Below are positions 7,289-34,618 of a stretch of 41,048 bases of DNA, piece after piece. A program made the translations under genes and the position numbers. How positions within the stretch are numbered: position 1 is the stretch's first letter; the number at the start of each line of letters is the position of its first letter. Source of the DNA: Deltaproteobacteria bacterium (GTDB taxonomy: Bacteria > Desulfobacterota > Desulfuromonadia > Geobacterales > DSM-12255); assembly GCA_021849045.1 (NCBI GenBank), contig JAJZTK010000018.1:1-41048 (forward strand), in the 5' to 3' direction. The notes beneath the pieces are model-generated. The model was not told the origin of the DNA. It ran no database searches and saw nothing but the letters and a program-made list of their open reading frames with translations.

Positions 7289-7582
7289 ATGAAACACGCA
7301 GCAATCATTTCAGTGGCATTGTTCTTTCTGGCCATGTTCATCACCGCTCCCTCCTTTGCCGATTCCGAGGTGAGAGGTGACGTACGCGACATGAGGGGGT
7401 CCCAGATCGTCGTGGAGCTGCAGGACGGAAGCACTCGCAGCTTCGAGGTGACCAGTGAAACAAGGATGTTTTCCCAGGGAATGCCGGCCCGGATAAAACG
7501 GATACTTCCCCACTCCACGGTGCGGATATCGGTGAAGAACGGCAAGGCTTCCGGGATATTCGTTGAGCAGGTACCGAAATGA
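7289..7582 (+). CDS. small secreted protein of unknown function between the pilin cassettes
   Basis: A 97-residue protein from the ATG at 7289, preceded by AAGG in ggtaaggtc; an upstream in-frame start at 7265 would add eight residues ahead of the signal peptide. The N-terminus MKHAAIISVALFFLAMFITAPSFA looks like a Sec signal peptide cut after SFA. The mature part of about 73 residues (SEVRGDVRDMRGSQIVVELQ onward) alternates polar and hydrophobic residues, suggesting a small beta-barrel or SH3-like fold. No Cys, no known motif. Its TGA overlaps the ATG of the second pilY1 (ATGA at 7579-7582), so it is translationally coupled to that gene and probably works with PilY1 or pilus assembly in the periplasm. 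I do not recognise the family. Confidence 0.75.
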   Translation: MKHAAIISVALFFLAMFITAPSFADSEVRGDVRDMRGSQIVVELQDGSTRSFEVTSETRMFSQGMPARIKRILPHSTVRISVKNGKASGIFVEQVPK

Positions 7583-10500
7583 GACGTCTCGTCATTGTCC
7601 TGCTGACCGGCATTATTCTCATTGGATCGACCCTTGTGGCCCAGGCGGCCCCGTCGATTGTCTGGACCTCTCCGGCAAGCAATGCCACCAATGTCGATGT
7701 GGCCATAGGCACGATCTGGGCGCAATTCAATCAACTGAACATGGACGGAACCAGCTTTAACGGCCGGGTCACCGTTGACAACGGGGCGACCTTCACGGTG
7801 AGCAAAGTCAACGGTGGGGCGTTGGATGTGGGCGATTACCTTCAGATTGCCCTGAATGGCAACCTGAAATACAGCACCACCTATACCGTGACGGTCGATA
7901 GAAGAATCATGGACATAAACGGTATCAAGATGGGGACGACCTACAGCTGGAGCTTTACCACCATGGCAAAGCCGGTCGCCGACACCACCCCGCCGACGGT
8001 CAGTTCCACATCGCCGATAAGCGGTGCGGTCGATGTCCCCCTGACGTCCCAGGTCGGCATTACCTTCAGCGAGGCCATGAACCCGGCAACCATAAGTACC
8101 TCTACCATTCTGGTGAATAACGGCGCCGTAACCGGGACCGTGGCCCTCGACGCCAGCGGCAAGGTCGCGACCTTTACCCCCTCCGCCAACCTGAGCTCTT
8201 TCACCAACTACACGCTGACCGTCACAAACGGCGTGAAGGACGCCGCCGGCAACGCCATGACAAGTTCCTACACCTCTACCTTCCGTACAATCAGCGCTGA
8301 CACCACCCCACCGACGGTCACGGTGATAAGCCCGATCGCCGGTGCCACCGGCGTCGATTCCGGCAGTGCCATCACTGCCACGTTCAGCGAGGCAATGACG
8401 GCAGCGACCATTTCCACCACCACCTTTTCCGTCAGTGGAGGTGTCACCGGCACGGTCTCCTATGATCCGGCGACCTGGAAGGCTACCTTCACCCCCACGG
8501 TGCCCCTGGCGAACGGCACGAACTACACGGCGACCGTTTCCACCGGGGTGAAGGATCTGGCGGGAAATGCCATGGCAGTGGCCAAGTCCTGGACCTTCAC
8601 GACCCTTGCGGTTGTCACACCCCCTGCACTCAACGATTACTGCCAGATCCCCCCTTATGTGACCAGCGCGTCGTCGACCCTGAAGCCCAATGTTCTTTTG
8701 ATCGTCGACAATTCGGGGAGCATGTACGAGTTTGCGTATAAGACCGCCGGCGCGGGGAGCAGCAGCTACGACACCGGTTATAACCCTGCGACCAGTTACT
8801 ACGGCTATTTCGACAGCAGCAAGATGTACAAGTACAGCAGTTCCTATTTCGAGTTGGATACGGCCGCAACCCCTGACAGGACCTCGTTCTGGTCGGGCAA
8901 TTTTCTGAACTGGTTGACCATGCGTCGGATCGATGTCATCAGGAAAGTGCTGGTGGGGGGGAAGACCCAGCCCCGGTCGGCTAACGTCGCAAACTACCTC
9001 TTTGCCGCCGAATCTCCGGACCGCGATTTCTACAAGAGCTACAACAACGTCTACTACACCGTCCAGGCCGGAACATCGACGGAGGTGATCAGGAACACGA
9101 CCAACAACACGACCTACAACGTCAAGATCTACGTGGGGAACCAACCCCCCCAGGATGGGCTGGTCCTGAGCTATTCGGACCGGATCAACTTCGGCATCAT
9201 GTTCTTCAACGACGGCTACCGGTACGAGTACGGGATAAACAGCGTCAGGGACGGAGGGTTTGTGGCCGTCGATATGGGGTCCACCGGTACCAACCTGATC
9301 ACGCAGATCGAGAATACCGATCCCACCACCTGGACACCCCTGGCAGAGACCCTCTACGAGGCGACCAGGTACTTCCAGGCGACGACCAGTGCTTACAACG
9401 GCGGCACTTACTCCGGCAAGGATCCGATCCAGTACAAGTGCCAGAAGAACTTCGTGCTGATCCTGACCGACGGCGAGTCGACCATGGACTGGAATCTCCC
9501 CGGCACCAACTGGGGCACCGGTGCGGTTACCGACTCCAACTTCAACATCAAGACCTGGATGGACAGCATCGCCACCCAGGAGGGGTCCGCGAGCCAGTGG
9601 AACGTGAATGCGAATGGCAGCGCCGGGACATATTACCTGGAAGGAGTTGCCTATTACGCCCACAATACCGACCTGCGCAGCAGCACCCTGGGCAAGAGCG
9701 ATCTGCCGGGCAAGCAGAACCTGACCATCTATACCGTGTTCGCCTTCGACGATTCGCCGGTGGGGCGCGACCTCCTGAAGAAGACGGCAAAGTACGGCGG
9801 GTTCAACGACTACGACAATACCGGAAAACCTGACAAGCCTCTCAAATGGGACAAGAACGGCGACGGCATCCCCGATACCTACTTCGAGGCCAAGGATGGT
9901 GCTCTATTGGTTTCTTCCCTCGATCAGGCCTTTTCCGACATCCTGGCCCGCGTTTCGGCCGGTACGGCCGCGTCCATCCTCTCCAACAGCGAAGGGAGCG
10001 GGGCGAACATCCTCCAGGCGGTCTTCTTCCCCAAGAAATACTTTGATGCCCAGACAGAAGCAGACTGGACCGGAGAGATGCATAACTTGTGGTATTACAT
10101 CGATCCGTTCATCAACAACAGCACCGTCCGGGAAGATACTGACTACGTAACCGCTTCTCCAGACCCTCCCCACCTGCTCAATCTGGGGAGCGATAATGTG
10201 GTCAACTTCTATTTCAATACCGACCAGAACAAGACACTCGTCAAGCGTTACAAGGACCTGAAAGGCGACGGCCAGCCCGACGTGGATACTAATGGTGACG
10301 GTATTCCCGACGCCTACACCTTTATTGACGAGGTTGATCCGGACAATGTGAAGAGTATTTGGCGGGCCGGCAAGCAGCTCTGGGGCAGAACCTCGGCACG
10401 GACCATCTACACCCAGACCAGTGGCAGCCTGACCAGTTTTCCTGCTCTGGACACCACCCAGGCATCTATCCTCCAACTGTTGCAGGCGGCCAACAAGACC

Positions 10501-15469: not shown

Positions 15470-16522
15470 ATGTTTTTTGCCAAGAAAAAAGAACTGGTTG
15501 GAATAGATGTGGGGTCTAGTTCGGTAAAGCTCGTCCAGTTGAAAGAGCAAAAAGGCAGCTATTCCCTGCAGAATGTCGGCATCTGGCGTTTGCCACCCGA
15601 GGCTATCGTCGACAATGCTCTGATGGATAGTTATACAGTGGTTGAGGCGGTGAAAGGACTTTTGAAAGGTCTTGCCATCAAGGACAAGGAGTCTTCGACT
15701 TCGGTTTCCGGCAATTCCATTATCATTCGGAAGATTGCCCTCCCTGTAATGCAGCCGGAAGAACTTGAAGAACAGATTCATTGGGAGGCGGAACAGTATA
15801 TTCCCTTTGACATAAACGATGTTCATGTGGATTTCCAGGTTCTGGAGAGCGACGGGGTCGATCCTTCCAAGATGAGCGTCCTCCTTGTTGCAAGCAAGAA
15901 GGATATCATCAATGACTATCTATCGGTGTTCAATGAAGCAGGCATAAAGCTGGTGGTCATTGATGTCGACTCCTTTGCAGTTCAGAATGCTTTTGAACTC
16001 AACTATGAAGTGAATCCGGATGAAGTTTGTGCCCTTATTAATATAGGGGCAAGTATCATGAACCTGAACGTAGTTCATGCAGGGACATCGCTCTTTACTC
16101 GCGACGTTCAAATGGGAGGCAATCTTTTTACTGAAGAGATCCAGAAACAGTTTGGCTTGAGCGGGGAAGAGGCGGAGAAACAAAAGGTGACCGGTGATGC
16201 TGTCTCCGGGCCACGACTTCTGGATGTAATCGATAAGATTAATGAAAATTTGGCGCTGGAAATTCGTCGATCCCTGGATTTCTACAATTCCAATGCTATT
16301 GAAGGAAAGATAAGTCGAGTGCTGATCAGTGGTGGTGCCGCAAAGACTCCACACCTGATTGACGCGGTAAGTCATAGACTCGGACTGCCTGTTGAAATCA
16401 TGAACCCGTTCCAGAAGATAACGTTCAGCGAAAAGGAATTTGATCCCGAATACCTTGAGCAGATCGGGCCTTTGATGGCTGTGGCGGTTGGATTGGCGAT
16501 AAGGAGGCTCGGCGATAAATGA
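15470..16522 (+). CDS. pilM: PilM, actin-like type IV pilus assembly ATPase-fold protein
   Basis: A 350-residue cytoplasmic protein of normal length. The actin-fold phosphate motifs are visible: VGIDVGSSSVKLVQL near residue 10, ALINIGASIMNLNVV near 187 and LISGGAAKTPHLIDAV near 285. PilM binds the cytoplasmic N-terminus of PilN (INLLP motif) and links the motor to the PilNOP ring. It starts 18 bases after the HTH gene with AGGG upstream, and its TGA overlaps the pilN ATG (16519-16522). Confidence 0.95.
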   Translation: MFFAKKKELVGIDVGSSSVKLVQLKEQKGSYSLQNVGIWRLPPEAIVDNALMDSYTVVEAVKGLLKGLAIKDKESSTSVSGNSIIIRKIALPVMQPEELEEQIHWEAEQYIPFDINDVHVDFQVLESDGVDPSKMSVLLVASKKDIINDYLSVFNEAGIKLVVIDVDSFAVQNAFELNYEVNPDEVCALINIGASIMNLNVVHAGTSLFTRDVQMGGNLFTEEIQKQFGLSGEEAEKQKVTGDAVSGPRLLDVIDKINENLALEIRRSLDFYNSNAIEGKISRVLISGGAAKTPHLIDAVSHRLGLPVEIMNPFQKITFSEKEFDPEYLEQIGPLMAVAVGLAIRRLGDK

Positions 16523-17085
16523 TCAGGATAAACCTTTTACCTGTCCGGGCTGCAAAAAAGAAAGAAACCGCCAGGCAACAAACCACTATTGCCCTCATGT
16601 CGATAGCTGGCGTTTTGTTGATCTTCTTTGCCCTCTATTCAGTGACGCTCGGTAAAATTAGTGGTGCCAAGAACGAAATAACCTCTACAGAGAATGAGAT
16701 CCTGCAACTAAAGCAGAAGATCGGTGAAATCGATAACATCAAAAAGCTTCAGGCTGACGTGAAGAAAAAGCTCGATATCCTGGCCCAACTGCGCAAGGAA
16801 AAAACCGGCCCTGCGACACGGCTGGCAACCTTGAGTGATGCTGTTCCGGAGAAACTCTGGTTGACCAAGTATTCTGAAGGGACCGGGTCGGTATCCATCT
16901 CGGGGACTGCTTTCAGCGAGGAGCTCATAGCCGATTTCATGCGTCGTCTTCAGGCTTCTGCTGACTTCACGAACGTTGAATTGCAGGTTTCCGAGCAAGC
17001 TGAGGTAAGCGGCGTCAAGCTGAAAAGATTTGATATCACCTGCGTGTTGAAAAGTCAGAAGAAAGAGGACCCTCCCAAAAAGTAG
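16519..17085 (+). CDS. pilN: PilN, inner-membrane alignment complex
   Basis: 188 residues. The N-terminus MIRINLLPVRAAKK contains the INLLP motif that docks in the PilM groove. One TM segment follows at about 24-44, then a periplasmic coiled coil (about 48-95, rich in K, E and I/L) and a ferredoxin-like domain ending in a Lys-rich tail. PilN pairs with PilO in the inner membrane. It overlaps pilM by four bases; pilO follows after 38 bases. Confidence 0.94.
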   Translation: MIRINLLPVRAAKKKETARQQTTIALMSIAGVLLIFFALYSVTLGKISGAKNEITSTENEILQLKQKIGEIDNIKKLQADVKKKLDILAQLRKEKTGPATRLATLSDAVPEKLWLTKYSEGTGSVSISGTAFSEELIADFMRRLQASADFTNVELQVSEQAEVSGVKLKRFDITCVLKSQKKEDPPKK

Positions 17086-17123
17086 TGAATTGGCACAGTG
17101 CAGGACACCATTGAGGATATGGC

Positions 17124-17720
17124 ATGGATCCACGTATTGATAAAATTCTGAAGTTGCCGACCCGACAAAAGGTCATGATCCTGGTTGCCGTGGTGCTATT
17201 GATTGGAGCGGCTCTTTTCTTCAGTCTGCTGCAGCCCAAAATGCAGGAGTTGAAGGATCTGCAGACGAAACTGGATGGATTGCGGTCCGAGGTGCAGGAG
17301 AAGAAGCGGGTTGCCGACAATCTGCCGAAATTCAAGTCTGAGTACGGAAAATTGCAAAAGGAGTTAGATAGCGCTCTTACCGAGCTTCCCAATCAGAAGG
17401 AGATTCCGTCCCTGCTGACCAGCATCACGAGTGCCGGAAAAGGTGCAGGGCTCGATTTCTTACGATTTGCACCCAAACCGGAAGTGTCCAAGGATTTCTA
17501 CGCTGAAGTGCCGGTGGATATCGTTGTGTTCGGTTCGTACCTTAGCCTTGCCAATTTCTTCACTACCGTCGGTAACCTGCCCCGGATCGTCAACATGCAG
17601 AACGTGACTTTTTCAGACATCAAGACCGATAGAGGGCGTACTCTGGCCAAGGTTACCTGTCTGGCGACGACTTTCCGCTTTCTCGACAAGAAAGAGATCA
17701 AGGATGACAAGAAGAAATAA
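17124..17720 (+). CDS. pilO: PilO, inner-membrane alignment complex
   Basis: 198 residues with a short cytoplasmic N-terminus (MDPRIDKILKLPTRQK), one TM segment at about 17-36, a coiled coil at about 38-85 (KMQELKDLQTKLDGLRSEVQ) and a periplasmic ferredoxin-like domain around VDIVVFGSYLSLANFFTTVG, a typical PilO stretch. It forms a heterodimer with PilN that PilP joins. The 3' end overlaps pilP by 17 bases. Confidence 0.94.
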   Translation: MDPRIDKILKLPTRQKVMILVAVVLLIGAALFFSLLQPKMQELKDLQTKLDGLRSEVQEKKRVADNLPKFKSEYGKLQKELDSALTELPNQKEIPSLLTSITSAGKGAGLDFLRFAPKPEVSKDFYAEVPVDIVVFGSYLSLANFFTTVGNLPRIVNMQNVTFSDIKTDRGRTLAKVTCLATTFRFLDKKEIKDDKKK

Positions 17721-18279
17721 TGTTACGGTATTCTTGCTGACCTGTTCCCTTGCGTTCACTCTGGTGTGTGGATGCAAGAAGGAAGTATCGTCTCCTCCTC
17801 CCCAGCAGGCGCAGCCCGCCAAAACTGCTGCGCCTGCGTCTGCCGTTCACAAGTCTATGACCAGTACCAAGTCGGGTGTCCAAAAAACGATGTCGGCTGC
17901 TCGCATCGTAACCGTCGGCCAGATTGACTTCACGAACAAAAAGGATCCCTTTAAATCGGCAGTTACCGCCCCTTTGCCGACAGACAAAAGTAGTGAACAA
18001 GTAGTGAGAAAATCCGGTGAGCAATTGCCGATTCTGAGTTATGAAGCGGAAAAGTTCAAAGTCGTTGGCATCATCACTGGCATCAAGGAAAACAGGGCAC
18101 TCCTGATCGATCCTGCGGGAAAGGCCTATGTCGTAAGGCAAGGAATGGCTGTTGGGAGTAACGATGGTGTCGTTGCAAAAGTCAACCTCAACTCTGTGGA
18201 GATTGTGGAGAAGTTTCGGAACGACGACGGCCGCGTACGAAAAAGGACCGTAAAACTTACCCTGACCAGGAAAAAGTAA
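17704..18279 (+). CDS. pilP: PilP, pilus assembly lipoprotein
   Basis: 191 residues. An N-terminal lipoprotein signal ends VCGC, with probable lipidation on Cys24, followed by a disordered Pro/Ala-rich linker. The C-terminal HR domain is recognisable from DFTNKKDPFKSAV and YEAEKFKVVGIITGIKENRA, and then ALLIDPAGKAYVVRQGMAVG. In known systems PilP is anchored to the inner membrane and binds the N0 domain of the secretin PilQ. It starts within the pilO end and pilQ follows after 12 bases. Confidence 0.94.
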   Translation: MTRRNNVTVFLLTCSLAFTLVCGCKKEVSSPPPQQAQPAKTAAPASAVHKSMTSTKSGVQKTMSAARIVTVGQIDFTNKKDPFKSAVTAPLPTDKSSEQVVRKSGEQLPILSYEAEKFKVVGIITGIKENRALLIDPAGKAYVVRQGMAVGSNDGVVAKVNLNSVEIVEKFRNDDGRVRKRTVKLTLTRKK

Positions 18280-18291
18280 GGAGATTTACAG

Positions 18292-21093
18292 ATGAAAGTG
18301 CACTGGTCCAGAATACGTCAGGGGAGCATGCTCCTCATATTGCTGACAGCGCTTACCGGTTGTGCCGAGCGCATGGCGGCCGTCAAGCCGTCGGTTGTTG
18401 CGGCGCCGGACGAACCGGCCGAAATCAAAGCCATCAAGGTTTCTGATGACGGCAAACAGGTGGAAATTACCGCCAGCAAGCCTCTGACCTATACATTCTA
18501 CCGGACGGCAAATCCCGCCAAAGCGGTTGTTGATCTGGCCCAGACTATGCCCGGTGCTGCCAAGGGCATTCAGGAGGTCAACAAGGGGGAGGTTAATAAG
18601 GTAGACGTGACCAGTCACAGTTTTGGGACCGGCTCACTCAGCCGCGTTGAGATTTTCCTGGCCCGGGATGCAGAATTTACCGTATCCGCAGACCCGGCTG
18701 ACAAGAGCAGGCTGGTTGTATCATTGGCGGCTCCGCCAGCAGCGACGTCGATAAAGACGGAACAGGTTTTGACTCCGACGATTGCTCCCGAAAAGGATGT
18801 AAGAGCCTCGACCCCATCTCCCCAGGCTGAAACCAAGGTTGTGGCAGCTGCACCTGCTATAGCCAAGGGTACGGTGCAGCCTTCTCCCGCACCCACAGTG
18901 CAATCTCCTGTGGTTCAATCGGTTGAGAAGCTGAGTGAACCGGTACACGCTGAAAAGGAGAAAACGCCGGCATCTGAGGGTAAATCGGTAACAGCCATAA
19001 CAAAGGCCTCTGATGGCATTCTCGTTGAAGTAAATGGTGGTGTCGAAGCCTACAACTCGTTTAAACTGACCAAGCCGGACCGTTTGGTTATTGATATTCC
19101 CGGCGTGAAAAGTGGTTTGTCATCCAAGACAGTCGATATCAACGGTTTCGGACTTGGCAAGGCGCGGCTGGGGGCTTCACCGGAAAAGGTACGGATCGTA
19201 TTCGATGCGTCGCAGGGAGTTCTGCCCTACTATCAGATCAGTAAGAGCGCTACGGGTTTGAAAATCCTTTTTGGCGATACTCCATTTGTGCCGGTTCCCA
19301 AAAAACAGGAAGCAATCGCGGCACCGGTGGCACCGACGGTCGAAGCACCAAAGGCTGCCGTGGCCGCTGCTGAACCAGCTGCTGCTCCAGTGGCAGCCGG
19401 ATCTGAAGCAACTCCGGCGCCGGTCAAGAAGTCCGTTCACCCCGGAGTTGCCACTGTAGAAGCGATCGATTTCTCGCAAAAGGACGGTAATACCCGTCTC
19501 GCCATCAGGGTCAGCGGAGATTGTGTCGTTGGCAAACCCTCAAAAGTTGCCAAAGGGGTTTCCCTTACACTGAAAAACTGCCAGCTTCCGAAAAAGCTGC
19601 AGCGATCACTTGATACCAGTGGGTTCACCAGCGTGGTTCAGGGCGTAACTCCCTATGCGGTCAGGGTCAAGGGGGGAACTGATGCACGGTTTCTGGTAAA
19701 GCTCCGTAGCGAGGCTCCTGCTACCGTAACGCGCGACAATGATCTTGTTATCCTGAGCATCAAGGATACGTATCAAGCCGAAGAGTCCCCCATGGCTAAG
19801 ACCGCTCCAAAGGCCAAAGAAGAGAAGTCAGCCGAGGAGATGTCGCTCCCGGACAAGACGGCACAGGATTCGGCACCTGCCGCTGGTGCGAAAAAATACA
19901 CCGGGCGGCGCATCAGCCTTGAGTTTTCGGATGCCGACATCAGGAAGATTTTTCAACTGATTGCCGAAGTGAGCAACCTGAATATCCTGGTTTCCGACGA
20001 TGTCAGCGGAACTATTAGCCTGAAGCTGGTGAACGTGCCATGGGACCAGGCCCTGGATGTAATCATGGAAAACAAGGCGTTGGCCATGCAGCGGGACGGT
20101 AACATCGTGCAGATCAGGCCAAAATCCAAGATAAAGTCTCTGGATGAAGAAGAGAGGGATCGGATTCAGGCTGAAGTGCGGAAGATGGATCTCAAGACCG
20201 TCATCTTCGATGTCAATTTTGCCAACATCGCCGATGTTGAAAAGCAGTTCAAGGCCATCTCATCCGCCAATTTTCGGACCGATGTGACTGTTTCTACAGA
20301 TGCCCGTACCAACAAGGTGATTGTTGTCGATGTGGAACCGGCCATCAAGAAAATGAAGTTACTGCTGGAATCCCTGGATGTGCCGGAAAAGCAGGTGATG
20401 ATCGAGGCGCGCATCGTCGAGGCCTCGTCCAACTTTACCCGGGATATCGGGGTACAATGGGGCTTGAGCTATAAAGATGGCTCGGCCAGCTTTGCCAACC
20501 TCAATTCGGTTTCCACCTCCCTGGGCGGTGTTGTGTCGACGGTGCTGCCGACAGTCACCACCGGCGGGATGGCAACCGGCATGTCGTTCGGCAAGCTGAC
20601 CAGCAACGTACAGCTGGACCTGCGGCTGTCGGCAGCGGCCACCATCGGCCAGGTGAAGATAATCTCCACACCGAAGGTGCTGACGGTCAACAACAAGGCG
20701 GCCAAGATATCCCAGGGCCAGTCCGTTCCGTACCAGACCGTGTCGGCGGAGGGTACCAAGACCGAGTTCGTTGAAGCGGCCCTGACTCTTGAGGTTACCC
20801 CGCACATCACGGCCGATGGCAGCGTTTCCATGAAGATCAAGGCCTCCAACAACTCGGTGGGGAGCGGCACACCGCCGCCGATCAACAAGAAGGAGGCAAC
20901 TACCGAACTGGTGGTGAAGAACGGCGAGACCACGGTCATTGGTGGTATCTATGTGGATTCGGATACGGAGACCGACACCGGCGTGCCGTTCCTGGCTGAC
21001 ATCCCGCTGTTCGGCTGGCTGTTCAAGTCGAATACTAAAACGAAGCTCAAGAATGAGCTGTTGATCTTTATTACTCCGAAGATTGTATCTTAA
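18292..21093 (+). CDS. pilQ: PilQ, type IV pilus secretin with three AMIN domains
   Basis: A 933-residue outer-membrane secretin, the pore through which the pilus passes. The start has AAGGAG upstream. The signal peptide ends in the lipobox LTGC. Three peptidoglycan-binding AMIN domains are separated by Ala/Pro-rich linkers: about 44-145, 235-325 and 385-490. The N0 domain (GRRISLEFSDADIRKIFQLI) lies near 543-620, the N1-type domain near 640-705 (NKVIVVDVEP), and the secretin core from about 710 with VMIEARIVEAS, VTPHITADGSV and the terminal NELLIFITPKIV. Three AMIN copies make it longer than many PilQ proteins. Confidence 0.95.
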   Translation: MKVHWSRIRQGSMLLILLTALTGCAERMAAVKPSVVAAPDEPAEIKAIKVSDDGKQVEITASKPLTYTFYRTANPAKAVVDLAQTMPGAAKGIQEVNKGEVNKVDVTSHSFGTGSLSRVEIFLARDAEFTVSADPADKSRLVVSLAAPPAATSIKTEQVLTPTIAPEKDVRASTPSPQAETKVVAAAPAIAKGTVQPSPAPTVQSPVVQSVEKLSEPVHAEKEKTPASEGKSVTAITKASDGILVEVNGGVEAYNSFKLTKPDRLVIDIPGVKSGLSSKTVDINGFGLGKARLGASPEKVRIVFDASQGVLPYYQISKSATGLKILFGDTPFVPVPKKQEAIAAPVAPTVEAPKAAVAAAEPAAAPVAAGSEATPAPVKKSVHPGVATVEAIDFSQKDGNTRLAIRVSGDCVVGKPSKVAKGVSLTLKNCQLPKKLQRSLDTSGFTSVVQGVTPYAVRVKGGTDARFLVKLRSEAPATVTRDNDLVILSIKDTYQAEESPMAKTAPKAKEEKSAEEMSLPDKTAQDSAPAAGAKKYTGRRISLEFSDADIRKIFQLIAEVSNLNILVSDDVSGTISLKLVNVPWDQALDVIMENKALAMQRDGNIVQIRPKSKIKSLDEEERDRIQAEVRKMDLKTVIFDVNFANIADVEKQFKAISSANFRTDVTVSTDARTNKVIVVDVEPAIKKMKLLLESLDVPEKQVMIEARIVEASSNFTRDIGVQWGLSYKDGSASFANLNSVSTSLGGVVSTVLPTVTTGGMATGMSFGKLTSNVQLDLRLSAAATIGQVKIISTPKVLTVNNKAAKISQGQSVPYQTVSAEGTKTEFVEAALTLEVTPHITADGSVSMKIKASNNSVGSGTPPPINKKEATTELVVKNGETTVIGGIYVDSDTETDTGVPFLADIPLFGWLFKSNTKTKLKNELLIFITPKIVS

Positions 21094-21116
21094 GCGATTT
21101 AGTCGAGAGGATTAGG

Positions 21117-21761
21117 ATGAAAAAATTTTTTAGCTTATTGCACGTACTCACGGTGGTAATAGTTTTTACCGTACAGGGCTGTGGCTCAGGCGATAGCGAA
21201 TTGATTGGCAGTCTAGACATGACTGCTACCAAGGTGGACGATTCAGGAGGTTATTCCCACGCTGAAAGTACGGTAACCTATAAACATCCGACCAAAGACC
21301 CTACAGGTACAGAAATCTCCTATTCAGAAAATATTTATACGCCTACAATTCGAATAAGTAGCTCTTCGCAAACAAAAAAAGTAAATAGCTCTGGTGCTAT
21401 TACCTTTATATCCAAATCTGTGCAGCAAGGCACCGAACCTATTTTTATTGATGTCTCAGCTCAAACAGGTTCATTGACGCAGTTTAAGCGAATAACTATT
21501 CCTGCCATAGCTTCGCTGAGTGTTACCCCTTCTGCGATTGCATTTCTTGTGACTGATGCGGTTGGAACAGCTAAGACGGTTACAATTTCAGGTGGGATTT
21601 CTCCGTACTCGGTGTCATCCAACTCATCGAATATTGGTGTAGCGGTAAATGCTGCTACAGCAACTATAACTAACAATGTGGTTATTACTGGTACGCGATC
21701 CGCCACAATTACGATTACAGATGGTGCTGGCAAGTCAGCGACTGTTTTGGTAGGTTATTGA
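21117..21761 (+). CDS. lipoprotein of unknown function after pilQ
   Basis: 214 residues. MKKFFSLLHVLTVVIVFTVQGCGSGDSE has a lipobox (VQGC, Cys22). The mature protein is rich in Ser, Thr, Ile and Val, with a C-terminal segment (ITIPAIASLSVTPSAIAFLV to the end) that looks like one Ig-like beta-sandwich. It has an upstream GAGAGG and lies only 23 bases after pilQ, so it likely shares its transcript and may be a pilus- or secretin-associated lipoprotein. Codon use is more AT-rich than in the neighbouring genes, suggesting separate acquisition or relaxed selection. I do not recognise the family. Confidence 0.75.
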   Translation: MKKFFSLLHVLTVVIVFTVQGCGSGDSELIGSLDMTATKVDDSGGYSHAESTVTYKHPTKDPTGTEISYSENIYTPTIRISSSSQTKKVNSSGAITFISKSVQQGTEPIFIDVSAQTGSLTQFKRITIPAIASLSVTPSAIAFLVTDAVGTAKTVTISGGISPYSVSSNSSNIGVAVNAATATITNNVVITGTRSATITITDGAGKSATVLVGY

Positions 21762-21792
21762 GTCGGATTCTCTGGGTTAATCGAAGAGGGTA

Positions 21793-21823
21793 CAAATGCC
21801 AGGGGAGTCCCTGGCATTTGTTT
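21793..21823 (+). terminator. intrinsic terminator closing the pil operon
   Basis: CAAATGCCAGGG at 21793-21804 pairs perfectly with CCCTGGCATTTG at 21809-21820 (12 pairs, loop gagt), followed by TTT. It lies 31 bases after the lipoprotein stop and 52 bases before aroC, separating the pilus genes from the shikimate operon. The T-tract is short, but the stem is strong. Confidence 0.75.
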
Positions 21824-21874
21824 ACTTGGGAAATTACCTGTCACAGATTTAAGTGATGCTAAGGAGTTTTTGAG

Positions 21875-23056
21875 ATGTTGCGTTACCTTTGCGCCGGTGA
21901 ATCCCACGGTCCACAACTGACCGCCATCATCGAAGGGCTTCCGTCCAACCTGCCGGTTGCCGAAGAGTCTATCAATATTGACCTCGCACGCCGCCAGGGA
22001 GGCTACGGCCGCGGTGGGCGAATGCTTATCGAAAAGGACCAGGTGGAGATCCTCTCCGGCGTCCGCTGGGGCAAGACCATCGGTTCGCCGGTGACCCTGG
22101 CGGTGAAGAATCGCGACTGGGAGAACTGGCAGGAGAAGATGTCTCCCTACGAGCGGCACCAGAACGACAAGATCCGCGTGACCCGCTCACGGCCCGGCCA
22201 TGCGGACCTGCCCGGAGCCATGAAATACGACCACCGGGATGTGAGGAATATCCTGGAGCGGGCGAGTGCCCGGGAAACAGCGGTACGGGTGGCGGTCGGC
22301 AGCGTCGCCAAGTCACTCCTTGCCCAGTTCGGCATTTTGGTCAACGGTTTTGTCGCCGAGTTGGGCGGCATTGTCGCCAAGCGCCCCAATCTCCCGCTCC
22401 AGAACCTGGTGGAGATGGCCTCGCGCTCGGAGCTTTATACCTATGATGCGGCTGCCGAAGCCGCAATGAAGGAACATATCGACCGGATGAAAGCGGCCGG
22501 CGACTCGGTGGGTGGCATTGTCCAGGTTGTGGTGAGCGGCGTCACTGCCGGCTTGGGGAGCCACGTTCATTGGGACCGGAAGCTCGACTCCCGTCTGGCG
22601 GCGGCGGTTATGGGGGTCCAGGCCATCAAGGGGGTGGAGATAGGTTGCGGCTTCGATGCTGCCCGCCTCCCCGGCTCCAAGGTGCATGACGAAATCTATT
22701 ACGACTCGGCCAGGATCGTCAAAGGCAAGCAGACCGGGTTCTACCGCAAAACCAACAACGCCGGCGGTATTGAAGGCGGGATCAGCAACGGTGAAGACAT
22801 CGTGCTCAGGGCCGCCATGAAGCCGATTCCGACCCTCTACAAGCCGCTTCGCTCGGTCGATATCGACACCAAGGAGCCCTATGAGGCAACGGTAGAACGT
22901 TCCGACGTCTGCGCCGTGCCGGCGGCGGCGGTGGTGGTGGAGGCTGTGACGGCCTTTGCCCTGGCCGAGGCTATGATTGAGAAATTTGGCGGCGACAGTG
23001 TGGCGGAGATGCAGCGCAACTATGTCTCATATGTCGAGTACCTGAGCGAGTTTTGA
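21875..23056 (+). CDS. aroC: chorismate synthase
   Basis: 393 residues. It converts 5-enolpyruvylshikimate-3-phosphate to chorismate using reduced FMN, the last shikimate step. Family signatures are [16 protein letters not shown] at the start, the Arg-rich [12 protein letters not shown], the [28 protein letters not shown] block and [18 protein letters not shown] is spaced eight bases from the ATG. First gene of the aro operon; aroB follows after 13 bases. Confidence 0.96.
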
Positions 23057-23069
23057 ATTGGGAGTGTTG

Positions 23070-24155
23070 ATGGAGGAGATCGTTACCGTTGGGCTGGGCG
23101 ACAGGAGTTACCGGGTCCGGGTGGGCACCGGGACGCTGCCCCGAATAGGCCCGCTCTGTCACGCTGTCGGGCTGGGAAAGCGGGCGGCGGTAGTCACCAA
23201 TCCGACGGTGGGTGCATTGTACCTGCCCACCGTCAAGGCGTCCCTCGAAGCTGCCGGGTTTGGCGTGCTGGAGGTGGAAATAGCCGATGGCGAGCAGTAC
23301 AAGAACAGCGAAACCCTCAATTCGATCTATGACCGGCTTATCGAAGGTGGCGTGACGCGTGACGGTTTTATCGTGGCCCTGGGCGGCGGTGTTGTCGGCG
23401 ACATGGCCGGCTATGCTGCGGCGACCTTTCTTCGCGGCATACCTTTCGTCCAGGTGCCGACGACCCTCCTTGCCCAGGTTGACAGCAGTGTCGGTGGCAA
23501 GACCGGTATCAACCATCCCCGTGGCAAGAATCTTATCGGCGCTTTTCACCAGCCCCGCCTGGTGCTGGTCGATACGGAAACCCTCAAGACCCTCCCTGAG
23601 CGAGAATACCTGGCAGGACTCGCCGAGGTCGTCAAATATGGCGTGGTCCTGGACCGGACGTTTTTCGAGCTTCTTGAAGCCAACACCACTCCCCTGCTGC
23701 GACGGGATCAGGATATCCTCAGGACGATCATCGCCCGCTCCTGTGCCATCAAGGCCGGCATTGTCGAACAGGACGAACGGGAAGGGGGGCTCAGGGCGGT
23801 TCTCAACTATGGCCATACGCTCGGTCATGCGGTTGAAACTTTGACCGGCTATCGGCAATATCTTCACGGAGAGGCCGTCGCCATCGGCATGGCCCGGGCC
23901 GCGCAACTGTCCGTGGCTTTCGGTTACGCCTCCGAAGCTGACGCTACCAGGGTCACGGCCCTTTTGACCGCCCTGAATCTGCCGGTTGTCTTGCCGGTAT
24001 TTCCGTTAGATCAGTACCTGGATGCGTTGCTCAAGGATAAGAAGAGCCGCGATCAGGGGCTCAGCTTCGTCTTCAACCGGGGAATCGGCGGGTACACCAT
24101 CGCCACCGTTTCAGATTTGCAGGATCTGCTGGCTCGTTGCGGGCTTGGGGGGTAG
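23070..24155 (+). CDS. aroB: 3-dehydroquinate synthase
   Basis: 361 residues from the ATG at 23070, with GGGAG at 23060-23064; upstream in-frame TTG/GTG codons are less likely. It converts DAHP to 3-dehydroquinate using NAD and a divalent metal. Signatures: [20 protein letters not shown], the glycine-rich [42 protein letters not shown], the metal-binding Glu in [10 protein letters not shown], and the His motifs [12 protein letters not shown] and [11 protein letters not shown]. Normal length. It is two bases from the TPR gene. Confidence 0.96.
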
Positions 24156-24157
24156 GC

Positions 24158-25183
24158 ATGGGCGAAGACAAAACCTCATTCTGGACCGACATTAAACTGT
24201 ACGAGGAGATTCTGGAGCGCAATCCCGATTCGTATGCCTTTATTCCCCTGGCAAAGCTCTACCGCAAGCTGGGGCTCCCGGATGACGCCCTGGCTGTGGC
24301 CAAGCGGGGAACCGGCCGTTACCCGAACCTGGTGGCCGGTCAACTTGAACTCGGGCTTGCCTGCCACGAACTGGGGCTCAAAGGGGAGGGACGGGCTGCA
24401 CTTGAGTATGTGGCCCGCATTACGCCGGAAAACGTCCAGGCCCAGCGTATCCTGAGCGAGATCTACGCCGATGCCGGTGACTCTGCTGCTGCCGAGTCGG
24501 CGCTCAGGATCGTCCTCGACCTGGCACCCAATGACCTTGAAAGCAGGGTGATTCTGGACTCCCTTGCACGAATGACTGGCGCTGTAGAAGAGGTGACAAC
24601 TGCTGAATCGACGGAATCAGGTGCGTTGGATATTGCCGGGACAGACTCATTCGGTACAGAATCTTATGGTGAAGAGCTGCTTTTTGCCGAACCGATGCCC
24701 GCGGTGGCAACAGAGACAATTGAGCTGGATGAAGAGATTCACGAGCTCACTGATGACTGCATCATTGAAGAACTGGAAGAGGTTGCTGAAGACGAATGGG
24801 CGGTGGGCCAGCATGAGTCGGACATCGGTCTGGCTCCCGTTGTCTCTGCAACCATGGCCGAGCTTTATGTGAAGCAGGGGTTCAACGATCTCGCCATCGG
24901 CGTGTATCGCCAGCTGGTTGCCCAACATCCCATGGATACCGAACTCCTGGTTCGCCTGGACGAGTTGGTTGCCATTGAACGCAGCAGCGAACTCTCTCAC
25001 CCGGAAGTTTCCGCTCCGCCCTTTCTTGAACCGAGCCCGCTTCCCGAATTGGGCGTCGCCGGTGTGGGCGATGACGACGTGCAGGCCCGCCCAGCCCATC
25101 GGAGGCAGGCGCTGGTAGCGACTCTTGAGGGGTGGCTGGCAAGCATTGGGAGGATGAAAGAATGTCGTTCAAAGCTACACTGA
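24158..25183 (+). CDS. tetratricopeptide-repeat protein in the aro operon
   Basis: 341 residues from the ATG at 24158, two bases after aroB. Residues about 10-135 hold three to four TPR units (LYEEILERNPDSYAFIPLAK, GRYPNLVAGQLELGLACHEL and ALRIVLDLAPNDLESRVIL). A very acidic, probably disordered stretch (about 150-220) follows, then one more TPR-like unit (MAELYVKQGFNDLAIGVYRQ, about 230-262) and a Pro-rich tail. No signal peptide, so cytoplasmic scaffold is likely. It overlaps the next gene, a Roadblock/LC7 protein, by 22 bases, suggesting the two act together. It has no evident link to shikimate chemistry. The specific function is not recognisable. Confidence 0.8.
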   Translation: MGEDKTSFWTDIKLYEEILERNPDSYAFIPLAKLYRKLGLPDDALAVAKRGTGRYPNLVAGQLELGLACHELGLKGEGRAALEYVARITPENVQAQRILSEIYADAGDSAAAESALRIVLDLAPNDLESRVILDSLARMTGAVEEVTTAESTESGALDIAGTDSFGTESYGEELLFAEPMPAVATETIELDEEIHELTDDCIIEELEEVAEDEWAVGQHESDIGLAPVVSATMAELYVKQGFNDLAIGVYRQLVAQHPMDTELLVRLDELVAIERSSELSHPEVSAPPFLEPSPLPELGVAGVGDDDVQARPAHRRQALVATLEGWLASIGRMKECRSKLH

Positions 25184-25524
25184 AGGAGCTGGTGGAAAGC
25201 ACAACCGGTGCTATTGGCGCTTCCATCATGGGGTACGACGGCATTCCCATAGACGAATACCTGTCTGACTCAGCCGATTTCGATGTGCAACTCCTGGTCG
25301 TTGAGTATGCAAACCTCATGAAGGAGGTTCGGCAGACCATCGAAGTGTTGAAAACCGGGGCAATGGAAGAGTTAAGCGTTACGACTGTCAAAGTGAGGGT
25401 ATTGGTGAGAACCGTAAACGACGAGTTCTTTCTGCTCCTCCTGCTGGCTCCTGACGGGAACTACGGCAAGGGGCGCTATCTGCTCCGGCAGGAAGCACCC
25501 CGGATATCCGAACTTCTTACCTGA
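25162..25524 (+). CDS. Roadblock/LC7 domain protein (MglB-like)
   Basis: 120 residues from the ATG at 25162, with GGAGG eight bases upstream; the frame is open earlier inside the TPR gene. The whole protein is one Roadblock/LC7 fold: an N-terminal helix [20 protein letters not shown], the strand-turn [12 protein letters not shown], a second long helix near [20 protein letters not shown], and the strands [20 protein letters not shown] and the final helix. Proteins of this fold dimerise and often regulate small Ras-like GTPases such as MglA, which sets cell polarity and pilus placement. No GTPase gene lies in the window. The role is inferred. Confidence 0.82.
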
Positions 25525-25543
25525 CCTTTGGATTGGAGCATGT

Positions 25544-25987
25544 ATGAAAATTCTCGTCCTGCATGGACCAAACCTGAACCTTCTGGGAACCCGCGAGCCG
25601 GGCGTATACGGCACCGTCACGCTGGCTAACATCAACTCCGCAATTGCCGAACTGGCCGTGCAACTTGGTGCCAGCATCGATTTTTTTCAATCAAACTCGG
25701 AAGGGGCGCTGATCGACGCCATCCAAGGCGCTGTTGCAAGTCATGACGGCATCCTCATGAACCCCGCAGCCTACACCCACACCAGCATTGCCATCCGGGA
25801 TGCCATAGCGGCTATCGGTCTCCCGGTGGTGGAAGTGCACCTTTCAAACATCCATGCCCGTGAACCGTTCCGTCACAATAGTTTCATTGCACCGGTTGCC
25901 ATAGGACAGATTGCAGGTTTTGGCCCGGACAGCTATCTCCTGGGGTTGGAGGCATTGGTTCGGCACATCCGGGGCAAGGCCCGCTGA
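25544..25987 (+). CDS. aroQ: type II 3-dehydroquinate dehydratase
   Basis: 147 residues, typical type II length. It dehydrates 3-dehydroquinate to 3-dehydroshikimate as a dodecamer. Signatures: [19 protein letters not shown] with the catalytic Tyr, [31 protein letters not shown], and [20 protein letters not shown] with the catalytic His. GGAG is five bases from the ATG. Last gene of the aro operon here; the 391-base gap that follows is regulatory. Confidence 0.96.
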
Positions 25988-26007: not shown

Positions 26008-26025
26008 ATTTGCATTTTTGCAAAT
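26008..26025. promoter_or_regulatory. activator site 1: ATTTGCA-N4-TGCAAAT palindrome
   Basis: ATTTGCATTTTTGCAAAT is a perfect 18-base dyad. It is the first of three copies of TTTGCA-N4-TGCAAA in this gap and lies about 279 bases upstream of the predicted sigma-54 start site, a normal distance for an enhancer-binding protein that loops DNA. The activator is not identified. Confidence 0.6.
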
Positions 26026-26036
26026 ACAAGCTACGG

Positions 26037-26054
26037 ATTTGCATCCATGCAATC
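26037..26054. promoter_or_regulatory. activator site 2: ATTTGCA-N4-TGCAATC
   Basis: The second copy of the dyad, with one half-site mismatch. It starts 29 bases after site 1, close to three helical turns, so both sites would face roughly the same side of the DNA, as in paired sites for hexameric activators. Confidence 0.55.
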
Positions 26055-26159
26055 GAGTTGCTCAGGTTACCCTTCACGCCAGTAAGGCTCTCTTCGCTGC
26101 TATTCCTTTGTAATTTAAAGCCAAATCTCTTCCGTGTCGCGACCCCATGCTTCAGCGCC

Positions 26160-26177
26160 ATTTGCACATCTGCAAAC
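26160..26177. promoter_or_regulatory. activator site 3: ATTTGCA-N4-TGCAAAC
   Basis: TTTGCA catc TGCAAA is a perfect dyad over 16 bases, centred about 118 bases upstream of the predicted sigma-54 start site. The half-sites match those of site 1 while the four central bases differ, indicating selection on the half-sites. Confidence 0.6.
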
Positions 26178-26259
26178 CTTTTTAATTTAAACTCGTCCGG
26201 TGTTGCACTGTTAGTGTGTAACTAGCTGTAATGTATGGTTAATATTGAGGCTGGCAAAG

Positions 26260-26278
26260 TTGGTACAGCGGTTGCTTT
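26260..26278 (+). promoter_or_regulatory. sigma-54 (RpoN) promoter
   Basis: TTGGTACAGCGGTTGCTTT has GG at 26262-26263 and GC at 26274-26275, exactly ten bases apart, and follows the consensus TTGGCACG-N4-TTGCTTT with two mismatches. Expected transcription start is near 26287. It is in the only long gap of the window, upstream of the unknown membrane module, with three activator-type dyads behind it. Confidence 0.7.
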
Positions 26279-26304
26279 AGCTGTAAACATTGTTACTCCT
26301 ATCT

Positions 26305-26378: not shown

Positions 26379-26570
26379 ATGGCGACGGATAAAATCTGTC
26401 CATTCTATGGCAAAAACGATGACTACTGTGATGTCGGCTGCGGGTATATCTCCAGTTACGATGTGAACATGATCATCCGCTATTGCAGCTGTCGCTACTG
26501 TGACTGCCCGAAATACAAGGAACTGGCCGACCGCTTTCCGGCCGACTCTCTCCAACCTCTGAACTGCTGA
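26379..26570 (+). CDS. small cysteine-rich protein, first gene of the sigma-54 module
   Basis: 63 residues with eight Cys: C7, C17, C21, then the cluster RYCSCRYCDCPKYKELADRF (C36, C38, C41, C43) and a C-terminal Cys63. The spacing could bind an iron-sulfur centre or zinc. No signal peptide or TM segment, so cytoplasmic. No clear Shine-Dalgarno site precedes the ATG, but the structured leader may affect initiation. It is followed after 11 bases by a 40-codon membrane peptide gene. I do not recognise a named family. The Cys pattern makes it unlikely to be a random frame. Confidence 0.7.
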   Translation: MATDKICPFYGKNDDYCDVGCGYISSYDVNMIIRYCSCRYCDCPKYKELADRFPADSLQPLNC

Positions 26571-26581
26571 AAGGAATTGCC

Positions 26582-26704
26582 ATGCTCTATCTTCTGACGC
26601 TCCACATGCACGATTTTGCTCTAGCTGCCTCGCTGGCAGCGGCAACGGTTTTTGTTATCACTTCAACGATAAAGGAGAAAAGACATGAGCGAAAAAGAGC
26701 TTGA
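26582..26704 (+). CDS. 40-residue single-TM peptide
   Basis: The ATG at 26582 has AAGGA six bases upstream. The product starts MLYLLTLHMHDFALAASLAA, has one hydrophobic segment at about 10-30 and a basic tail KEKRHERKRA that should stay in the cytoplasm. Its end overlaps the next gene by 20 bases and holds that gene's AAGGAG, implying coupled translation. Reality is supported by the ribosome site, tight spacing and membrane topology; function unknown. Confidence 0.6.
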   Translation: MLYLLTLHMHDFALAASLAAATVFVITSTIKEKRHERKRA

Positions 26705-26936
26705 ACTTCTGGCACGCATTGAGGAGCTGGAGCGTCACACTTGGCGAAACAGTGCGATTCTGCGGGCCGTGGCCATGGTCGCCTTCACGGCCATGGTCGG
26801 CATCATAGTCGCTTCCGGCGTGGTCGGTGGCGGACGCGGCAGCCACTGGTCCGGTCCTGCCTGGAACACGATGTGGCTCTACGGGCTGTTTGCGGCGAAT
26901 GCCGTATCCATGTTCTGGACCACCCACAAAGAATAG
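26685..26936 (+). CDS. 83-residue protein with two TM segments
   Basis: AAAGGAG precedes the ATG. An acidic amphipathic N-terminus (MSEKELELLARIEELERHTW) is followed by TM1 at about 25-50 (ILRAVAMVAFTAMVGIIVAS), a Gly-rich loop GGGRGSHWSGPAWN and TM2 at about 61-79. The N-terminal helix could form a coiled coil. It lies between the 40-residue peptide and the eight-TM protein and likely forms a membrane complex with them. Family not recognised. Confidence 0.72.
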   Translation: MSEKELELLARIEELERHTWRNSAILRAVAMVAFTAMVGIIVASGVVGGGRGSHWSGPAWNTMWLYGLFAANAVSMFWTTHKE

Positions 26937-27023: not shown

Positions 27024-28076
27024 ATGACCCCGATGAGTCTTAAAAACGCCATACTGCTCCTGGTCGTGGTGACGCTCTGTTCCACGTTTTCCATGCGGAT
27101 CTTCCAGGGACTGGACGAGATGATGGGCGAGCAGTACTGGGTGGTGGATACAACCCAGGGAGACCATGGCTGGTATATGATGGGGCTTTTGCCCCACGTG
27201 AAAAAGATGCCCAAGGACGTGGTCAAGGCTGCTAACACCGACCCGGCAGTCAAAGAGAAACACGTCATCTATGCCCAGGCTGGCGACTTTGCCGGCAACT
27301 CGGTGTACGGCATCTGCTTCGGCATTCCATTCATCATGTTTCTGATCTGGTTCGCGTTCATTCTCGGGTTCCCTGATCGGGTCGACCCATACCTGCTGCC
27401 GAGGCGGATATTCACCGTCACGGTCATCATGGTCTGCTCGGTGGTGGTAAACCTCTTTCTCATGCGCATTGCCGCAGACTTCGCCCGTGACCCCATGGCC
27501 CGCATTGCCAACGTAGCCGGTAACCACGCCTCACTCCTCTTCCACAATGCCGGTATCTGGTTTGCCATCCTTTTCTCGGCCCTTGGCACCCACAGCCACT
27601 CCTCGAAAGAGGTCACTGCCCCGGACAGCCGCAACTGGCAGAGCCAGGCCGACGAGAAGTTCTCCTGGATGTTCACCCTCCTGGGGGTTGTCACCGTGCT
27701 TGAGGTCGTGCTGGTGAAGAACAAGCTGGCGCTTCCCGACGCCGCCGTGGACTACTCGGTCTGGATCATCTGGGTGGTGATCTTTATGCGGATGTTTGGC
27801 TTCTCCCCGAAATACTGGGTCAAGCGTGGACGTGGTATCGCACTGATGATCGGTGGTACGCTGGCGACCCTGGTTGTATTCTACTTCCTTGAGCGGGCCA
27901 CCGGCACCCTCGGGGCCGGGTTTGCCTCCCCGATACTGGCAAAAGCCCTCGGCGCGGAGAACCAGAATATCGGTCTCTCACTCATGGTCTCCATTTACCT
28001 GATTTTCTGGATGGAGTTTGCGGCGGCCATCAGGATCAACGGTCCGGCAAGAAAGGCAGTAACGCAGAAACAGTAA
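27024..28076 (+). CDS. eight-TM integral membrane protein of unknown function
   Basis: 350 residues from the ATG at 27024, with AGGAGG eight bases upstream; an in-frame start at 26985 lies inside the repeat. TM segments at about 7-24, then after a 60-residue outer loop containing GDHGWYMMGLLPHVKK, at about 86-110, 122-144, 170-190, 215-232, 244-262, 272-292 and 315-340. His residues sit at helix ends in GNHASLLFHNAG and GTHSHSS, and charged residues are within TM8 (WMEFAAAIR). These could bind metal or haem, which is speculation. It is the last and largest gene of the sigma-54 module, followed by a terminator. No named transporter or respiratory family is recognised. Confidence 0.8.
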   Translation: MTPMSLKNAILLLVVVTLCSTFSMRIFQGLDEMMGEQYWVVDTTQGDHGWYMMGLLPHVKKMPKDVVKAANTDPAVKEKHVIYAQAGDFAGNSVYGICFGIPFIMFLIWFAFILGFPDRVDPYLLPRRIFTVTVIMVCSVVVNLFLMRIAADFARDPMARIANVAGNHASLLFHNAGIWFAILFSALGTHSHSSKEVTAPDSRNWQSQADEKFSWMFTLLGVVTVLEVVLVKNKLALPDAAVDYSVWIIWVVIFMRMFGFSPKYWVKRGRGIALMIGGTLATLVVFYFLERATGTLGAGFASPILAKALGAENQNIGLSLMVSIYLIFWMEFAAAIRINGPARKAVTQKQ

Positions 28077-32711: not shown

Positions 32712-33596
32712 TCAATCGCGGTAGCGACGCATCAGGTCGCTGTATGCATCGATCCGCCGGTCCCGCAGGAACGGCCAGGAGCGTCGCACGGTTTCGCTTC
32801 TCATGAGGTCGATGGCAACTACCCCGGTTTCTTCGCGGTCTGCCGGCAGCCGGTCCAGAAACTCCCCCTGGGGGCCGACCACAAAGCTGTTTCCCCAAAA
32901 GCGCTGCCCCTTGTCACCTGCTCCGGGCGAGGCCTCGAATCCGACGCGGTTGACGGCCACCACCGGCAGGCCGTTGGCTACGGCATGGCCCCTCTGGACG
33001 GTTATCCAGGCCTCAAGTTGGCGCTCCTGCTCTTCCGGAGTGTCGGCCGGGTCCCAGCCGATGGCGGTGGGGTAGATAAGCAGATCTGCCCCGGCCAGCG
33101 CCATGAGACGGGCTCCTTCAGGATACCACTGGTCCCAGCAGACCAGCACTCCGAGCGAACCGACCGAGGTTTTCACCGGTGTGAACCCCAGGTCGCCGGG
33201 GGTGAAGTAGAACTTTTCGTAATAGCCCGGATCGTCGGGGATGTGCATCTTGCGAAAGGTGCCGGCAATGGAGCCGTCCCGTTCCAGGATGACCGCCGTA
33301 TTGTGGTAAATACCCGGTGCGCGCCGCTCGAAAAGGGAGGTGACGATGACGATCCCCAGTTCCCTGGCGATGGCGCCGAAGAGCTCCGATGACGGGCCGG
33401 GAATCGGTTCCGCAAGGTCGAACAGGGCGGCATCCTCGGTCTGACAGAAATAGGGGGTGGTATGCAGTTCCTGCAGCACAACCAGCTGGGCACCGGCTGC
33501 TGCGGCCTGGCGGATGCCGGCCACGCTCTTGGCGATAGTGGCGCTGCGATCGTCGGAACAGCTCTGCTGGACCAGTCCTGTGAGCAGGGTTTTCAT
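32712..33596 (-). CDS. aguB: N-carbamoylputrescine amidase
   Basis: 294 residues from the ATG at 33596, whose ATGA overlaps the aguA stop; the frame continues upstream, but that part is inside aguA. It is a nitrilase-superfamily enzyme hydrolysing N-carbamoylputrescine to putrescine, CO2 and ammonia. The Glu-Lys-Cys triad is seen in LQELHTTPYF, FRKMHIPDDPGYYEKFYF and VLVCWDQWYPEGAR. The sequences RFWGNSFVVGPQGE and HTTPYFCQTED are typical of this amidase. Coupled with aguA, it completes arginine-derived putrescine synthesis. Confidence 0.94.
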   Translation of the reverse strand: MKTLLTGLVQQSCSDDRSATIAKSVAGIRQAAAAGAQLVVLQELHTTPYFCQTEDAALFDLAEPIPGPSSELFGAIARELGIVIVTSLFERRAPGIYHNTAVILERDGSIAGTFRKMHIPDDPGYYEKFYFTPGDLGFTPVKTSVGSLGVLVCWDQWYPEGARLMALAGADLLIYPTAIGWDPADTPEEQERQLEAWITVQRGHAVANGLPVVAVNRVGFEASPGAGDKGQRFWGNSFVVGPQGEFLDRLPADREETGVVAIDLMRSETVRRSWPFLRDRRIDAYSDLMRRYRD

Positions 33597-34618
33597 GACA
33601 GGGTGCCTCTTGGCAGCTGCATGGTGACGCAGTGCAGCGAGCCGTGCTGAAGGATGAGCGGGCGACAATCGACGCCGATTATCTCCCGATCGGGAAAGGC
33701 CAGGCGGACTGCTGCCAGGGCCTGCTCGTCCCGTGCGTCGGCATAAGTCGGAACCAGAACAGCACCGTTGACGATCAGAAAGTTGGCATAGGTGGCCGGC
33801 AGTCGTTCACCGGCCGTGTCGAAGCTCGGAGCGGGCCAGGGGAGCGGGATAAGGCGGTACGGCTTTCCACTGCGCGTGCGAAAGGCGCCTAGTTCCGCAG
33901 CCATGGCAGTCAGGGCAGGGTAGTGCTCGTCGCCGGGGTCGTCGCAGGTGGCGTACAGGATCGTGTCGTCCGGGCAGAGTCGGGCCAGGGTGTCTATATG
34001 TGAGTCGGTGTCGTCACCGGCCAGATAGCCGTTTCCCAGCCAGAGAAAGTGGTCGGCGCCGAACTCGTCTCCCAGTGTCCGCTCGATCTCTTTTCGGGAC
34101 AGGTGGGGGTTGCGGTTTGCGCTCAGGAGGCACTCGGCTGTGGTCAGGATGGTCCCGCAGCCATCGCTCTCGATGCTCCCGCCCTCAAGGATCATGCCGA
34201 CGGTGCGTCGCTCCGCCCTGAAAGCCCCGGCTTCAGCCAGGAGGCGGGTCACCTGGTTATCCAGGTTGGCGGCGAATTTGAGCCCCCAGCCATTGAAGCC
34301 GAAATCGAGAAGGAGCGGCTGGCCATTATCGTGGACGGTTATCGGACCGAAGTCCCGGCTCCAGGTGTCATTGGTGGGTATCCCGACGATTCTGACCCGT
34401 TCCATTGTTGCCCCGGCATTCTTGAGCAGGGCATGGACTCCGGCCTGGTCCGGTGCGACGATGAGTACTGACTCAAAACGGCTTATTGTGGTGGCGATGG
34501 TACAGAATACCGGTTCAACTGCGTCCAGGCACGGTGCCCAGTCGCTCTCCCGGTGAGGCCAGGCCAGGAGAACACCGTCCTGTTCCGCCCACTCGGCTGG
34601 CAAACAACGTGTGGTCAT
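33593..34618 (-). CDS. aguA: agmatine deiminase
   Basis: 341 residues. It converts agmatine to N-carbamoylputrescine and ammonia. Guanidino-group-modifying fold with signatures LLAWPHRESDW, NDTWSRDFGPITV, ILEGGSIESDGCGTILTT, LWLGNGYLAGDDTDSHIDTL and the catalytic Cys in LQHGSLHCVTMQ near the C-terminus. AGGA lies upstream of the ATG. First gene of the agu operon; no arginine decarboxylase is in the window, so agmatine must come from elsewhere. The 149 bases upstream show no strong promoter. Confidence 0.95.
   Translation of the reverse strand: MTTRCLPAEWAEQDGVLLAWPHRESDWAPCLDAVEPVFCTIATTISRFESVLIVAPDQAGVHALLKNAGATMERVRIVGIPTNDTWSRDFGPITVHDNGQPLLLDFGFNGWGLKFAANLDNQVTRLLAEAGAFRAERRTVGMILEGGSIESDGCGTILTTAECLLSANRNPHLSRKEIERTLGDEFGADHFLWLGNGYLAGDDTDSHIDTLARLCPDDTILYATCDDPGDEHYPALTAMAAELGAFRTRSGKPYRLIPLPWPAPSFDTAGERLPATYANFLIVNGAVLVPTYADARDEQALAAVRLAFPDREIIGVDCRPLILQHGSLHCVTMQLPRGTLS

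Follow-up and report, generated by a model that had tools for sequence, protein, structure and literature searches.

An array of three TTTGCA-N4-TGCAAA dyads in the 41,048-nucleotide stretch of Geobacterales DNA analyzed here (the window) is, with good confidence, the upstream activating sequence of a response regulator and its Cache-domain histidine kinase encoded on another contig (C224); through this array, a σ54 promoter would drive an operon for membrane proteins within a probable short-chain monocarboxylate-uptake regulon of the Geobacterales. The dyads, listed in Table 1 together with the other elements of the system, are very probably the docking sites, still putative, of a single two-component regulator of the NtrC/AtoC type.

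Table 1. Elements of the putative dyad-controlled system in the window and elsewhere in the same genome
Feature	Position	Strand	Remarks
Distal activator dyad 1, TTTGCATTTTTGCAAA, exact	26009..26024	.	Genome-wide exact-copy count and conservation in relatives
Distal activator dyad 2, TTTGCATCCATGCAAT, one mismatch	26038..26053	.	29 bp from dyad 1
Proximal activator dyad 3, TTTGCACATCTGCAAA, exact	26161..26176	.	99 bp ahead of the -24 element
IHF-like element, GTAACTAGCTGTAA	26218..26231	+	Between array and promoter; EM motif search
σ54 -24/-12 promoter, TTGGTACAGCGGTTGCT	26260..26276	+	Distance between GG-N10-GC and proximal dyad conserved
63-aa Cys-rich protein (CPFYGKNDDYCDVGCGYIS...)	26379..26570	+	First gene of the operon
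40-aa one-helix membrane protein	26582..26704	+	Gene order conserved in relatives
83-aa membrane protein	26685..26936	+	Nearly invariant across the order
350-aa membrane protein (363 aa with the TTG start at 26985)	27024..28076	+	Order-restricted
Response regulator	G000:C224, ~8359-9742; locus L124:3363-4742	-	Single-copy orthologue
Cache-domain histidine kinase	L124:4864-6858	-	Adjacent to the regulator
MFS transporter promoter, TTGGTATCCAAGTTGCT	C199		Same array layout

The initial annotation had described three copies of the dyad, one of them with a single mismatch, followed by a promoter-like GG-N10-GC element at 26260; the copies and the element are present as described, and only the starts of the dyads (given as 26008, 26037, and 26160) need to be moved, each by one base downstream. 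In the whole 4.33 Mb genome, the exact motif occurs twice, as dyads 1 and 3, and sites with at most one mismatch number 16 versus 5 for the reversed-pattern control. Three of the 16 fall within 168 bp, for which the chance expectation is ~3 × 10−6. Among the other one-mismatch sites, that on C199, ahead of a gene for a major facilitator superfamily (MFS) transporter, is alone in having a promoter of the array layout, and the rest look like chance matches. The aroQ gene, which lies upstream of the array, was dropped as a candidate target because the two are unlinked in most relatives; a second aroQ homolog is found on contig C144. The neighborhood on that side (15470-25987) contains type IV pilus genes (PilM, the secretin PilQ) and, after them, aroC-, aroB-, and aroQ-like shikimate genes, with genes for a TPR protein and a Roadblock/LC7 protein in between. 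Farther away, the window encodes a 1590-aa protein with repeated bacterial Ig-like domains (Big_5, Big_12; 7579-12351) and a Porphyromonas-type peptidyl-arginine deiminase family protein (PAD_porph; 33593-34618), which is probably an agmatine deiminase.

With GG at -24 and GC at -12 separated by N10, the downstream element has the makeup of a σ54 promoter, and the RpoN promoter consensus of Geobacter sulfurreducens is TTGGCACGGTTTTTGCT (PMC2725144). At least two dyads of one activator lie ~80-300 bp upstream, as in an upstream activating sequence, and transcription is predicted to start near 26287. The textbook σ54 promoter is separated from its enhancer by a site for IHF. An EM search of 58 promoters recovers the motif GTAAC-N3-CTGAAA in this interval (log-likelihood 191, compared with 33-40 in shuffles). 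It begins at one of two places, 41-43 or 51-54 bp ahead of the -24 element, which differ by one helical turn. The motif fits the reverse complement of WATCARNNNNTTR, the IHF consensus that has been applied to G. sulfurreducens (PMC7962754), and is enriched on that strand only. The element, which had escaped the initial annotation, is best called IHF-like, a candidate for the bend site that is frequent, not obligatory, at such promoters.

The array is conserved well beyond this genome. With the downstream 350-363 aa membrane protein, found in 51 of 58 relatives, as the anchor for locus comparison, the array is seen in every upstream region of the first 30 loci. Dyads were then counted, allowing two mismatches, in the 44 operon-bearing genomes with enough upstream sequence: at least two are present in all 41 genomes that have the regulator described below (in one, G042, just one of the two counted dyads matches well) and in 0 of 3 that do not, and shuffled upstream regions reach this number in 0 of 2050 cases. 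The Fisher p value for array versus regulator presence, 8 × 10−5, overstates the association, as the regulator-negative genomes belong to one genus and represent few independent events. These three genomes (G013, G019, and G021) carry the operon with no dyads, promoter, or detected Cys-rich gene, and a fourth member of the genus, G016, has both regulator and array. Operon and regulator are both missing from G020, G035, G037, and G048, and there is an exception in L182, where the regulator is present and the dyads are degenerate, two in number with three mismatches each. Across 74 named loci of GTDB genomes, at least two dyads occur in 67 and TTGGYA-N7-TGC in 60, the loci without the exact promoter sequence mostly having a close variant at unchanged distance. 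The motif pooled from 179 sites is again TTTGCA-N4-TGCAAA, with an uninformative spacer.

Spacing is conserved as well. In most relatives, 29-33 bp separate the distal dyads, and the distance from the proximal dyad to the -24 element clusters at 87-93, 98-101, 109-115, and 124 bp; in these related sequences, the clusters near 90, 100, 112, and 124 bp are suggestive of helical phasing. Dyads and GG/GC elements are thus retained across the order rather than lost in related genomes, and the initial reading of the region as a σ54 enhancer gains strong support from array and promoter being kept in four families, with the proximal dyad ~90-115 bp ahead of the -24 element. Dyad pairs ~30 bp apart also occur near other genes at L071, L074, and L076 (genomes G014, G017, and G024), with no recognized σ54 element, and these may possibly be further members of the regulon.

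A candidate for the activator emerges from the 58 relatives when these are scanned for exact dyads and the genes beside the arrays are inspected. At such loci, an NtrC/AtoC-type response regulator is encoded immediately upstream of the array, beside a gene for a Cache-domain kinase, and by comparison of positions at least 21 genomes have the regulator gene abutting the array. One orthologue is found in 50 of the 58 genomes; in the genome under study it resides on C224, not linked to the array. The protein combines a receiver domain, an AAA+ domain with the GAFTGA motif, and a Fis-type HTH, as do NtrC-family (group I) enhancer-binding proteins (EBPs), and there is very little variation in its recognition helix (NMATIYRKIKKY / NMATMYRKIKRY). 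The kinase consists of dCache_2/sCache_2, HAMP, HisKA, and HATPase domains. On these comparisons, the activator can be named by gene as, putatively, the C224 response regulator with its adjacent kinase.

The kinase senses through a double Cache_2-type domain, the membrane-proximal module of which matches the pyruvate-bound structure 4EXO. In such sensors, Tyr-x-aromatic, a second Tyr-x-aromatic, and Lys are needed for lactate or pyruvate binding, His being typical of pyruvate sensors, and a single substitution can switch the ligand of a Cache domain (PMC12415202). Both modules of the kinase have the contacts Y-x-F/Y, His, Y-P-W, and Lys, and the orthologues conserve them. Their spacing, which in sCache_2-type sensors of C2/C3 carboxylates is Y-x-aromatic, His/Leu at +11, Y-x-aromatic, and Lys at +13, is exact in the membrane-proximal module, and the other module has a 2-residue insertion before the Lys. 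With moderate confidence, the ligand is taken to be a C2/C3 carboxylate, more like pyruvate than strictly L-lactate.

Two further gene families, both for transporters, have arrays of this layout ahead of them. The first is the MFS transporter, which scores above the cut-off of SfMCT, a curated family of L-lactate transporters, and has the array in ~28 genomes, including that of the window. The second is a SatP/GPR1-FUN34-YaaH permease, a homolog of acetate permeases: all 16 regulator-positive genomes with a close orthologue have the array ahead of it, and paired dyad sites are absent at SatP in regulator-negative genomes. Some MFS and several SatP promoters are degenerate in their -24/-12 elements; in one genus, the degenerate -24 elements of the SatP promoters lie where they would be expected. 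A search for SatP in the window's own genome gave no match. The motif accordingly does recur at other promoters, as the initial annotation had proposed to check, and its guess of an uncharacterized regulon holds. In nine f4 genomes, the MFS gene lies directly 3′ of the 350-aa gene, with a gap of 27 bp in G018 and G052, so the operon structure too ties the membrane protein to carboxylate transport.

The operon itself encodes proteins of unfamiliar kinds. Searches of Pfam and NCBIfam with the Cys-rich, 83-aa, and 350-aa proteins returned no family match. The second half of the 83-aa protein (SHWSGPAWNTMWLYGLFAANAVSMFWTTHKE) is almost invariant across the order, and the 350-aa protein has a mean column identity of 84% and is 70-99% identical across the order. 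It is present in 106 of 277 genomes of the class, all within four families of one order, and no relative outside the order was found among the 277. A profile search of the PDB gave no relative either, and its predicted structure (mean pLDDT 46.5) is unusable. With neither a family match nor a usable model, the role of the operon is inferred from its company: the operon probably serves the uptake of short-chain monocarboxylates, because the same regulator appears to control the MFS and SatP/YaaH transporters in relatives, and the 350-aa protein may be a partner of a monocarboxylate transporter or part of a coupling or regulatory membrane complex. A tentative extension, which we hold at somewhat below an even chance, is that the four proteins form a novel, order-specific membrane complex with a part in monocarboxylate uptake or in its coupling to respiration, with its own carboxylate-sensing σ54 switch. 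Extra copies of the Cys-rich protein occur at L066 (G002:C4) and L070 (G039); that of G002 lies beside the regulator gene with a complete array and promoter of its own and without the 350-aa gene.

Taken together, the kinase would detect a C2/C3 carboxylate outside the cell and phosphorylate the regulator, dimers of which would occupy the two distal dyads and the proximal one. A bend at the IHF-like element could then bring the AAA+ ring to the σ54 polymerase at the promoter, leading to transcription of the operon, and in relatives the same regulator would also control the lactate-type MFS transporter and the SatP/YaaH homolog. The part of this scheme most exposed to doubt is the signal, which could instead be something other than a monocarboxylate (redox or metal, in view of the Cys-rich protein), the transporters being secondary targets. 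The association with regulator and array is stricter for the Cys-rich gene than for the 83-aa and 350-aa genes, and in G002 the regulator adjoins an array with a second Cys-rich gene; however, the carboxylate contact residues are kept in both sensor modules and the two other target families are carboxylate permeases, which makes such a signal rather unlikely, though by no means far-fetched.

It is a good deal less probable that another σ54 activator, such as a LuxO-like quorum-sensing EBP, binds the dyads and that the linked regulator is a mere neighbor. Each genome offers many EBP-like candidates at first look, and the TTGCAW3TGCAA sites of LuxO resemble the dyads (PMC11443567); yet their spacer is N3 instead of N4, and, with this one EBP followed individually, a single regulator orthologue was found to track the array by adjacency and by presence and absence. 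Identity of the regulator with LuxO itself was rejected, its curated score being 357 bits against a cut-off of 800 and the site not being TTGCA-N3-TGCAA. Still more improbable is a role of the dyads as operators of a repressor or of a σ70 activator beside an incidental GG-N10-GC. Lone TGG-N10-GC elements are common by chance, the window containing 48 TGG-N10-GCW versus 53 expected, so the promoter element is significant by its conservation and position and not by rarity; against an incidental role, its distance from the proximal dyad takes set values in most genomes and across three target families, the dyads 90-280 bp upstream are suited to enhancers, and the regulator co-occurring with them is a σ54 activator. 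A chance palindrome cluster or nonfunctional repeat, for which the mild excess of two-mismatch dyads in the window alone (4 versus 1.5 expected) might speak, is contradicted by the genome-wide uniqueness and order-wide conservation of the array and can be set aside.

The carboxylate-responsive σ54 regulon favored here has relatives among known systems. DctB/DctD, for C4-dicarboxylates, likewise combines a carboxylate-sensing kinase, an NtrC-type regulator, and a σ54 transporter promoter. It differs from the present system, which has SfMCT- and SatP-type monocarboxylate permeases, an unknown membrane operon, and two Cache_2-type modules. AtoSC of Escherichia coli is distinct from the C224 system in sensor domain, site, and targets. 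AtoC gives the regulator its best NCBIfam score, 446 bits, and was rejected as its identity because the cut-off is 714 bits; AtoSC resembles the system also in responding to short-chain carboxylates (PMC3118216). LuxO and the Qrr sRNA promoters of Vibrio share an NtrC-family regulator and TTGCA..TGCAA dyads ~90-120 bp upstream of σ54 promoters (PMC11443567), whereas LuxO, with its N3 spacer, serves quorum sensing and sRNA targets, in place of the N4 spacer, Cache sensor, and transport operons found here. The G. sulfurreducens RpoN regulon (Leang 2009) has the same promoter consensus and includes σ54 control of the carboxylate exchanger dcuB, and array, regulator, and operon are absent from the genes described in the sections of that study consulted here (PMC2725144). 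No description of the motif, the regulator, or the operon was found in the open-access literature. Therefore, while the kind of system is known (a Cache kinase, an NtrC-type regulator, and σ54 transporter promoters), the regulon, the motif, and the membrane operon appear to be undescribed.

For this order of metal-respiring bacteria, for which taking up electron donors, acetate and lactate among them, is of great importance, an activator, a sensor, a motif, and three target families can now be named, at the strengths given above, for one regulon, and a physiological context is attached to an extremely conserved, order-restricted membrane protein.
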